This document shows positions 42,559 through 44,656 of a stretch of DNA of 64,000 nt, piece after piece. Every line of letters starts with the position of its first letter. Positions within the stretch are counted from its first letter, which is position 1. The notes beneath the pieces were generated by a model. It saw only the letters and a program-made list of their open reading frames with translations, made no database searches and had not been told where the DNA came from. Made by a program: the position numbers and the translations under genes. Source of the DNA: Breznakibacter xylanolyticus (GTDB lineage: Bacteria > Bacteroidota > Bacteroidia > Bacteroidales > Marinilabiliaceae); contig NZ_QKZK01000005.1 in assembly GCF_003254275.1 (NCBI RefSeq), positions 79,343 through 143,342 on the forward strand. The letters are read 5' to 3'.

Positions 42559-43563
42559 ATGTTAAAACACACATTCGCCACATTCCTGATGTTGCTATCA
42601 GGCATCATCCTGCATGCACAAGATATACAATACATTGATGAGTCTTCGGTGGAAGAAAACATTTCATCAGGAGGTCAGTTGTATGTGATTAATCCCGAAG
42701 AACAATACATATATTTCAAGCCGCAGCCCTTGTCGTTTATTGGGAATTCATTTAAGGATATTTACCTGGCTGCGGGCGAAGCGGTGAAAAAGGAAAACCT
42801 GTGGGGTATGGGAGCCATCGCGGCCTCTACAGCCATCCTGATTGTGTACGACGAAGAAATTACCGCAGCAGCCAAGCAGTTTGGGCGCTTTATTAATCTG
42901 GAGGCGACCAACAATGCTAAAAACATCTCGCCCATTGAAGGGGTCTCTTTCTTTGTCCCCACCGACCTGGCATCAAGCTTATATTACATTGGTGACGGCA
43001 TCACCGAACTGAGCGTCAATCTGGGATTTTACATCTACGGCTGGTGCACCAAGGACGCCCGTGCCCTGCGAACCGCCACCCAGCTCACCGAAGGAATGAT
43101 TGCCGTAGGTACCAGCGTGCAGGTGCTCAAGCATCTTACCGGCCGAAGCACCGCGATGATGAACAACGATAAAGATTTATGGCGACCATTCCCGTCACTG
43201 CAAGCTTACCATAGTTCCGTGCCCGCCTATGATGCTTTCCCATCGGGTCATTTGGCCACTGCCATGATGACCACCACGGTGATTGCCATGAACTACCCCG
43301 AGTACAAATTCGTTAAACCGCTATGCTACACTCTCATGGGTTTGTGCGGGTATCAAATGCTTAACAACGGTGTTCACTGGGCCGGCGATTATCCTCTGGC
43401 ATTGGCCATGGGCTATACCATGGGAAAGATTGCCGTGAATCGGGGCCGTTATAAAGTACAAAGACCCATGATGATGCAAAACAGAATACAGCCCAAATTC
43501 GATTTGGTACCAACAGTTCTCGATGGCTATGCCTCAGGACTCACACTGTCGGTCGTATTTTGA
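42559..43563 (+). CDS. PAP2-family phosphatase, exported
   Basis: 334 residues from the ATG at 42559, which starts a signal peptide (MLKHTFATFLMLLSGIILHAQ); the in-frame extension to 42448 crosses the asnS terminator. Phosphatase motifs: 'KHLTGRSTAM' (site 1 region), 'AFPSGHLATAMM' (PSGH, site 2) and 'NNGVHWAGDYPLALAMG' (HxxxD, site 3; the usual SR is replaced by NN). The replaced SR is odd but the His and Asp are kept. Probably removes phosphate from a lipid in the envelope, such as undecaprenyl-PP or lipid A; the substrate is not clear. Confidence 0.8.
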   Translation: MLKHTFATFLMLLSGIILHAQDIQYIDESSVEENISSGGQLYVINPEEQYIYFKPQPLSFIGNSFKDIYLAAGEAVKKENLWGMGAIAASTAILIVYDEEITAAAKQFGRFINLEATNNAKNISPIEGVSFFVPTDLASSLYYIGDGITELSVNLGFYIYGWCTKDARALRTATQLTEGMIAVGTSVQVLKHLTGRSTAMMNNDKDLWRPFPSLQAYHSSVPAYDAFPSGHLATAMMTTTVIAMNYPEYKFVKPLCYTLMGLCGYQMLNNGVHWAGDYPLALAMGYTMGKIAVNRGRYKVQRPMMMQNRIQPKFDLVPTVLDGYASGLTLSVVF

Positions 43564-43617
43564 AATTTCAGTCGGTTCATAACATCAATCCTTGCCCCCG
43601 GTTCAAGAGAAATAGAA

Positions 43618-43648
43618 TTTGAAATTTCATCAGAATATTGTAAGTTTG
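43618..43648 (+). promoter_or_regulatory. Consensus promoter of the rnk leader
   Basis: TTTG (43618-43621), exactly 19 bases, then TAAGTTTG (43641-43648). Both boxes match the Bacteroidetes sigma-ABfr consensus fully. Transcription should start near 43653-43656. Confidence 0.8.
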
Positions 43649-43667
43649 AAAAATTGAACAGCGAACC

Positions 43668-43778
43668 ATGCAATTCACTCCCAACAAATCAACGCAATTC
43701 ACCGGCAACCATTCAGAAATGAAGTGTTGTGCTTTGCTGCGTTCGTATGTCTTGCCATGTCGCCCACCTACTTGCTAA
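43668..43778 (+). CDS. Leader ORF of 36 codons, Cys-containing
   Basis: ATG at 43668, TAA at 43776-43778. The 36-residue product begins MQFTPNKSTQF and ends LPCRPPTC, with Cys at 20, 21, 31 and 36. It lies between a full-consensus promoter and a strong terminator. It may be a leader peptide for attenuation of the next gene, a small protein in its own right, or non-coding chance inside a small RNA. GCAATTCAC occurs twice near its 5' end. I do not recognise it. Confidence 0.35.
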   Translation: MQFTPNKSTQFTGNHSEMKCCALLRSYVLPCRPPTC

Positions 43779-43810
43779 AAAAACATCCCATCAATTTTAT
43801 AAAACATTGA

Positions 43811-43838
43811 AAGACCGGGACTCCGGTCTTTTTTTTTG
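43811..43838 (+). terminator. Strong terminator/attenuator 22 bases before rnk
   Basis: AAGACCGG (43811-43818) and CCGGTCTT (43823-43830) form a perfect stem with loop GACT, followed by T8. No room for a promoter exists between it and the ATG at 43861, so the following gene must be read through it. Confidence 0.9.
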
Positions 43839-43860
43839 TACAAGATAAATACATACGATT

Positions 43861-44268
43861 ATGAAACAACTCATCATTAATCAGACAGATGCCCATCGCA
43901 TCATGGATCGCATCCGCAACGCCAAGTCACAATCGTCAGCGACAGTCAATACGGCCAAACTGATGGCCGAAATCAACAAAGGCAAGCAAGTACCGCCCGA
44001 GAAAGTACCGGCGACGGTGGTGACCATGCACAGCAAGGTACGTGTCAGATATCTCGACACAAACCAAACCGTCGACATGGAACTGGTTTACCCCGAGGAA
44101 GCCGACATCAAGAATCATCGGATATCAATATTTGCCCCCATGGCCACGGCACTGCTTGGTTTCAGCGAAGGCGACGAAATAGAATGGACGGTACCGGCCG
44201 GCACCAAGCGCATGATCATTGAAAAGATTCTTTATCAACCCGAATCGAATGGTGATTACAACTCGTAA
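43861..44268 (+). CDS. rnk: Rnk/GreA-type RNA polymerase-binding factor
   Basis: 135 residues, the length of E. coli Rnk (136). A short helical N-terminus is followed by the GreA/GreB C-terminal FKBP-like domain: 'VPATVVTMHSKVRVRYLDTNQTVDMELVYPEEADIKNHRISIFAPMATALLGFSEGDEIEWTVPAGTKRMIIEKILYQPE'. The long GreA coiled coil is absent, so it probably binds the RNA polymerase secondary channel without cleavage activity. It is annotated as regulator of nucleoside diphosphate kinase in E. coli. Its transcript has a leader with promoter, small ORF and terminator. Confidence 0.85.
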   Translation: MKQLIINQTDAHRIMDRIRNAKSQSSATVNTAKLMAEINKGKQVPPEKVPATVVTMHSKVRVRYLDTNQTVDMELVYPEEADIKNHRISIFAPMATALLGFSEGDEIEWTVPAGTKRMIIEKILYQPESNGDYNS

Positions 44269-44276
44269 TTCTATGT

Positions 44277-44395
44277 CGTTTAGTGAAGAGAAAAAGATAT
44301 CAGACAAAGACAGATGATGAGATGAAAAATAGATGTTTAGATCCGTTCTCTTCGTCTCTTTTGTCTAATCTATCTGTCTTTTTATTGTCTCTTTT
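44277..44395. repeat. Dispersed inverted-repeat element, copy B (after rnk)
   Basis: Homologous, in opposite orientation, to 33242-33366. Shared blocks include GACAGATGATGAGATG, TTTAGAT followed by a CTCTTC block, and TATCTGTCT near the far end. It stands 3' of rnk, free of genes. Confidence 0.75.
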
Positions 44396-44448
44396 GTAAA
44401 TCGCACTAACTTAACGACTTTGACTTGTAATTGTTCACGATAAGTTAA

Positions 44449-44482
44449 GCAACGGGGTTATTAGAAGTAATTACCCCGTTGC
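44449..44482 (+). terminator. Hairpin downstream of rnk
   Basis: GCAACGGGGT (44449-44458) pairs with ACCCCGTTGC (44473-44482), followed by CTATTTT. It is 180 bases after the rnk stop, beyond repeat copy B. Likely the rnk transcript end. Confidence 0.7.
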
Positions 44483-44656
44483 CTATTTTACACCATCTTG
44501 AAAGTGAAGTTAATTGGTGATTACGGCGCATCTGTTTTGAAGCATCTGCATTGATCATTAAAAACCGATGAGAATTTTACCCGGTTCACCTCATACCCCC
44601 TAAAAGCCCTGTGCCTCCGTACCTCTGTGTTTTCTGTAAACTCTTGGATGAAAATC

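Follow-up and report, generated by a model that had tools for sequence, protein, structure and literature searches.

A putative trp-type transcription attenuator in the rnk leader of Breznakibacter xylanolyticus and related Bacteroidales

The leader of rnk in Breznakibacter xylanolyticus is, with a probability that we put at about 0.6, a ribosome-mediated transcription attenuator of the trp type, and it is probably up to translating ribosomes whether transcription enters the gene. This reading is built on the promoter, ORF and terminator sequences of the leader, on a geometry conserved in related genomes and on the covariation of a predicted antiterminator in those relatives, all found by sequence comparison.

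In the proposed mechanism, RNA polymerase would start from the promoter at 43618-43648 and make a leader of about 180 nt, and a ribosome would load on the short ORF near the 5' end of this leader. The footprint of a ribosome at the stop codon (43776-43778) would mask the antiterminator 5' arm located just downstream; with the antiterminator masked, the terminator hairpin would form and transcription would end before rnk, leaving the gene off. If the ORF were untranslated, or if a ribosome were held inside it, the antiterminator would pair with the terminator 5' arm and polymerase would read through into rnk. Rnk would thereby be made when translation falters.

Architecture of the leader and rarity of its terminator

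The relevant features of the window, i.e., the whole stretch of 64,000 nucleotides that was analysed (G000:C5:79343-143342), are the following:

Upstream of the leader, ending at 43563: PAP2-family gene
43618..43648, + strand: Bacteroidota-type promoter (TTTG at 43618-43621, N19, TAAGTTTG at 43641-43648)
43668..43778, + strand: leader ORF of 36 codons (ATG at 43668, TAA at 43776-43778)
43786..43789, + strand: 5' arm (UCCC) of a candidate antiterminator of 4 bp only, 8-11 nt past the ORF stop
43809..43837, + strand: intrinsic terminator (9 Watson-Crick pairs, 10 with G-U; loop GACT; T9)
43817..43820, + strand: 3' arm (GGGA) of the candidate antiterminator, at the end of the terminator 5' arm plus loop
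43861..44268, + strand: rnk, regulator of nucleoside diphosphate kinase (GreA/GreB C-terminal family, 135 aa)

By its profile matches, the gene downstream of the leader is Rnk, as had been assigned earlier. Its product is matched by the NCBIfam equivalog NF004396 with 118.4 bits over residues 3-134 (cut-off 109); a profile match to E. coli Rnk (PDB 3bmb) spans it almost completely, and it contains the Pfam GreA_GreB C-terminal domain.

A sequence-only reading of this DNA had placed before rnk a promoter TTTG-N19-TAAGTTTG, a 36-codon ORF with four Cys, and a stem followed by T8 that ends 22 bases before the ATG. The promoter and the ORF are read directly at 43618-43648 and 43668-43778. The promoter pattern alone is unremarkable, with 3 matches in the window vs. 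1.76 expected by shuffling. The ORF starts 19 nt past the -7 box, has a second in-frame ATG at 43719 and encodes a peptide with four Cys (MQFTPNKSTQFTGNHSEMKCCALLRSYVLPCRPPTC). The terminator is real as well, with stem arms at 43810-43818 and 43823-43831, nine Watson-Crick pairs plus one G-U and an energy of about -14.2 to -14.7 kcal/mol; its T-run (43829-43837), however, consists of nine T, six of them beyond the stem, and the gap from its end to the rnk ATG at 43861 is 23 bases, not 22. The claim that no room is left for another promoter agrees with the lack of a TAnnTTTG box in this 23-base gap of the window. Since, in addition, transcripts running on from the PAP2 gene would also meet the terminator, rnk would be transcribed through it. 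As far as sequence can tell, the arrangement is that of a transcription attenuator in general, with an intrinsic terminator between promoter and gene and no second promoter.

The leader is present in a single copy, no other copy being found in the genome at E 0.001. Neither an Rfam search with window positions 43500-43900 and nine relatives' loci (no family over the cut-off) nor a Pfam search with the leader peptide (no family at E 0.001) returned a known family. The fold of the whole leader RNA is only mildly stable (z -1.69), and for this reason we claim no riboswitch-like structure. In the interval between rnk and pheS, the window contains two inverted repeats, one at 44292-44395 with 24-nt arms 56 nt apart, and one at 44441-44490 with 23-nt arms 4 nt apart, which may end the rnk transcript.

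The placement of the terminator before rnk is rare. In 463 kb of the genome (window included), a strong terminator was found close upstream of one of 330 ORFs, namely rnk. The test demanded at least 8 pairs without mismatch (G-U allowed), at least 4 G-C, 7 T in 8 and a loop of up to 8, with the end at most 70 nt upstream of an ORF of at least 90 aa in a gap of at least 90 nt; ORFs with a gap below 90 nt were counted among the 330 although they were unable to score. This strict test misses weaker hairpins, such as the one near the ATG of greA of the same genome, which lies within the sampled stretch.

Leaders of rnk in related genomes and the geometry of the leader ORF

Rnk-family matches occur in 11 of 71 family genomes and in 12 of the 19 genomes of the G041 family; of the genomes sampled more widely, 35 of 393 from the order and, with a stricter cut-off, 9 of 395 from the class have them, as do 8 of 118 relatives of G441. 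Named genomes gave 549 loci, of which the best 80 were taken, and the sets overlap one another. Contigs searched with the window Rnk protein as a single query gave nothing; with an alignment as the query they gave matches. Six loci missed by the first start finder were later added with others, and identical proteins (e.g., L153 and L154) were counted once, which left 112 distinct proteins for the tree.

The first pass covered 103 upstream regions and flagged 24 for a terminator near the ATG; 20 of these have a -7 box upstream of it and 4 lack one. Sixteen were kept and, with L159, added later, make up the set of 17 leaders. Terminator strings, -7 boxes and antiterminator arms were picked by eye; two -7 boxes needed manual assignment, namely that of L066 (G441), at a contig edge, and that of L067 (G193), which matches poorly. 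Left out were L059 and L065, which have no promoter in between and whose hairpins, like that of L137, were taken as terminators of the upstream gene; L105, which has its own promoter after the terminator; and L133 and L139, which have no fitting promoter. Also left out were L046, L049 and L079, where the hairpin lies directly past the -7 box, and these were labelled HP5 together with L069, added by eye. The four loci represent another kind of rnk leader, with a strong hairpin at the extreme 5' end of the predicted RNA. In L098 and L132, a TATCTTTA box lies more than 100 nt upstream of rnk, and no terminator was recognised in the leader.

The comparison of leaders across rnk homologues, which had been proposed as a check, thus gave 17 of 112 orthologues with promoter, leader and terminator. 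Besides the window, this arrangement precedes rnk in Carboxylicivirga, in 12 genomes of the Lentimicrobium group (named for the G041 genus; L119, a Lentimicrobium sp. locus, has the same leader as L153 of that genus) and in two other members of the order. The -7 boxes of the relatives likewise lie upstream of the terminator, and the end of the terminator stem is 18-31 nt from the rnk ATG in the 16 leaders measured. Among the remaining orthologues, 4 have the hairpin directly past the -7 box, 52 have instead, by a loose pattern, a box resembling a promoter at most 75 nt from the ATG, and 39 belong to none of these kinds. On the tree, the leader label requires 4 changes vs. 16.1 for shuffled labels, and the 12 Lentimicrobium-group rows form one clade (SH-aLRT 99); 60 of the 109 inner branches are open, so the tree speaks neither for nor against a single origin of the leader. 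The closest orthologue of the window Rnk is only 56% identical, which puts the window leader beyond the reach of close comparison. A second, divergent group of GreA/Rnk-like proteins of the same family (ITELDY type; L038-L043 and others) forms an 11-row clade (SH-aLRT 99).

The position of the leader ORF is what most of these leaders share. In 14 of the 17, an ORF with an ATG starts 16-22 nt past the -7 box and stops 20-32 nt before the terminator, which is the geometry of a leader-peptide attenuator, i.e., a short 5' ORF with its stop near the antiterminator arm. The ranges used for testing (start 14-22 nt past the -7 box, stop 15-36 nt before the terminator, at least 6 codons) were chosen once the leaders had been inspected (only the held-out test of the window is free of this), and 0.4-6% of shuffled leaders fall within them, depending on the leader. 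Ten of 12 representatives fit vs. 0.34 expected, as do four of six deep lineages vs. 0.13 expected. With ranges taken from the other leaders only, a fraction of 0.0076 of the shuffled window leaders fits, as the window ORF does. A 36-codon ORF somewhere in such a leader is unremarkable by itself (9% of shuffles). The leader of Carboxylicivirga fails this geometry unless a second box, TATGTTTG, is taken as the -7 box, that of G469 fits only with a GTG start, and that of Breznakibacter L034 has a terminator and no ATG ORF in place, its duplex being no better than shuffled (p 0.55). Alignment A2, in which the G193 row opens at an out-of-frame TGA, was kept out of all counts.

These values bear on the possibility that the hairpin is a constitutive partial terminator which fixes a low rnk level, the ORF and antiterminator being real in Lentimicrobium and accidental in the window. 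That the window antiterminator has only 4 bp and that the window ORF has, by inspection, no clear residue match to any relative's ORF would agree with it. We nevertheless consider it unlikely, as the window ORF fits the geometry predicted from the other leaders, and as the nearest relative, Carboxylicivirga, has a leader of similar size with the ORF stop 23 nt before the terminator.

The encoded peptides do not point to a single sensed amino acid, a candidate that was rejected as the ORFs have, by inspection, none in common. No codon common to all leader ORFs beyond the start, no shared enriched codon or run of the kind found in attenuators of amino-acid operons, and no common residue pattern among the ORFs of deep lineages were seen by inspection. 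The 36-codon length common to the window and Carboxylicivirga and the tripeptide LRS in three ORFs were taken as chance. In five Lentimicrobium-group loci (G370, L119, L124, L156, and L158), with Rnk proteins 77-98% identical, the first eight residues, MQIILHSY, are identical and the Ile, His and Ser codons differ (Ser being encoded by TCT vs. AGT). The retention of these residues despite the codon changes argues for translation of the ORF in that subgroup, where the peptide itself perhaps has a role.

An RNA or a small peptide made for its own sake had been offered as the other explanation of the leader. In this case, the terminator would merely end an independent small gene, and rnk would be read from elsewhere or by leak. 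As expected of such a gene, promoter, four-Cys ORF of 36 codons and terminator do make up a complete unit of about 180 nt in the window. The comparison of lineages makes it very unlikely: they differ in RNA sequence, in Cys and in the length of the ORF (8-36 codons), no Rfam or Pfam family was matched at the cut-offs given above, the terminator stem keeps its short distance to the rnk ATG, and the window has no promoter box after the terminator. Of the two possibilities first raised, conditional read-through of rnk is thus the one favoured, and in a more specific form, given that relatives have the same architecture and ORF geometry, along with a covarying antiterminator.

Pairing and covariation of the predicted antiterminator

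Between the ORF stop and the terminator, the leaders contain a segment whose sequence complements the loop and the adjoining 3' part of the 5' arm of the terminator. A mutually exclusive antiterminator is predicted, which the comparison supports in relatives and for which the window has a 4-bp candidate. Duplex tests of the 17 single leaders gave p values of 0.013-0.55, at or below 0.05 in six. In the window, the antiterminator comprises four pairs around a weak inner hairpin (p 0.24, not significant alone), and with -6.2 kcal/mol it is far weaker than the terminator (-14.7 kcal/mol).

When the terminators of 11 leaders were swapped, pairing with the leader's own terminator was stronger than with the swapped ones on row- and column-centred energies (P 5e-5; P 1e-4 without the window and Carboxylicivirga, the two Marinilabiliaceae), related rows not being independent in this test. 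Ranked by raw energy, only 5 of the 11 leaders, the window not among them, pair best with their own terminator.

In a 10-row alignment of the Lentimicrobium group (A3), the antiterminator helix is 80% paired, with a register shift of one base in the G041 and G193 rows. Its column pair 8-37 is A-U in five rows and G-C in the five others, which is a compensatory change. The covariation score is 0.254 vs. 0.162, with 5 of 500 shuffles as high; it is highest at slide 0, and no slid register reaches it. The number of pairs changed on both sides is matched by 287 of 500 shuffles, and the terminator itself exhibits little covariation. The leader of G441 would form a perfect 8-bp antiterminator (GATTCCTC:GAGGAATC). 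The predicted arm begins about 12 nt (G193) or 15 nt (L094) past the ORF stop, i.e., at or beyond the expected edge of a ribosome, and in Carboxylicivirga it overlaps the last ORF codons.

Relation to known attenuators and to greA leaders

Attenuators of the trp and his type combine a short ORF, a stop codon adjoining the antiterminator arm and mutually exclusive hairpins. The window leader resembles them in its short ORF, in the stop next to the putative antiterminator arm and in the overlap of antiterminator and terminator; it differs in preceding a gene for a transcription factor instead of a biosynthetic one and in having no run of codons for one amino acid that could be seen by inspection. 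Within Bacteroidota, leader-peptide attenuation has been suggested for amino-acid operons of Flavobacterium psychrophilum (PMC9723704), and short ORFs have been noted in long 5' UTRs of Bacteroides thetaiotaomicron (PMC7366714).

Attenuated leaders of rnk and greA have been described before, from Proteobacteria and Firmicutes (PMC2965389; Rfam RF01771). Naville and Gautheret (2010) list greA/rnk as seventh among gene families controlled by attenuation and place rnk-leaders in Enterobacteria, Pseudomonas and Yersinia; Bacteroidetes are not mentioned in the main text (PMC2965389). Like the window leader, the rnk-leader RF01771 (about 100 nt) has an antiterminator and an intrinsic terminator shortly before rnk (PMC2965389). 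In window positions 43500-43900, the 9 matches up to E 10 do not include RF01771 (criterion at least 50 bits), and no match over the cut-off was found in 21 genomes of the family, this one included; the leader of E. coli K-12, a positive control, scored 124.9 bits. Two frames were seen in that E. coli leader, one of 17 codons with an ATG, opening 10 nt ahead of the first base of the model, and one of 10 codons with a GTG, whose end adjoins the stem.

The sequence-only reading had compared the leader to GraL of E. coli greA. The likeness stands insofar as GraL, too, is terminated early and precedes the gene of a secondary-channel factor (PMC6829880), but the rnk leaders of Proteobacteria are the nearer precedent (PMC2965389; RF01771). 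GraL differs in being regulated by GreA through the leader in cis, with no leader ORF mentioned in the account of it (PMC6829880). If rnk were autoregulated in this manner, read-through would be set by the amount of a secondary-channel factor, Rnk or GreA, and translation of the ORF would have no role. The C-terminal family common to Rnk and GreA lends itself to such control, as does the E. coli precedent, where the greA leader stops about two thirds of transcripts, GreA raises GraL output and GraL falls about four-fold without GreA (PMC6829880). It predicts neither an ORF at fixed distances from promoter and terminator nor a stop codon adjoining a covarying antiterminator, and we regard it as quite unlikely.

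A further point in its favour is that greA of the same genome also has leader hairpins, two in number. The upstream one (L001 963-997; G000:C11:80344-80378) lies directly past a TATCTTTG box and is conserved in sequence (AAAGAGUYCCG...CGGGAUUCUUU and a U-run). A model of this hairpin, made from 14 loci, has a match at most 600 nt upstream of presumed greA in 41 of the 58 related genomes, including 27 that are not among the 14; of its 65 matches, 24 lie elsewhere. Rfam gave no family at the cut-off for 11 greA loci. In the alignment, 99% of cells are paired, and there is no covariation beyond shuffles because the sequence hardly varies. This conserved hairpin is a possible counterpart of GraL in Bacteroidales. 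The second hairpin, terminator-like (GCAACCCTC...GAGGGTTGT, then a T-run; L001 1175-1208), is located about 46 nt before the greA ATG.

Consistent with the earlier remark that no such leader was known in Bacteroidetes, we found no description of an attenuated rnk or greA leader from Bacteroidota in the open-licence literature. Attenuation of rnk is known from other phyla, though apparently neither from Bacteroidota nor in the ribosome-timed form proposed here. Attenuation of rnk in distant phyla whose leaders share no model match would suggest that the same control evolved repeatedly for this gene family.

The preferred reading, ribosome-mediated attenuation, has consequences for the role of Rnk. 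Rnk of E. coli, an RNA-polymerase-binding protein, is a competitor of Gre and DksA; its function is listed as unknown, and its deletion has no phenotype in normal growth (PMC4598747). A translation-responsive leader would tell when the cell wants Rnk, giving a condition that can be tested. It would also be evidence that ribosomes of Bacteroidota run close enough behind RNA polymerase for attenuation, a matter for which our literature search found no direct test. More tentatively, and at somewhat less than even odds, Rnk of Bacteroidota may be under a translation sensor, in which any slowing of ribosomes on the tiny ORF would open rnk and reset the secondary-channel factor of the polymerase. 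If true, this would amount to a direct feedback from ribosome to polymerase, and transcription and translation would be tightly coupled in Bacteroidota.
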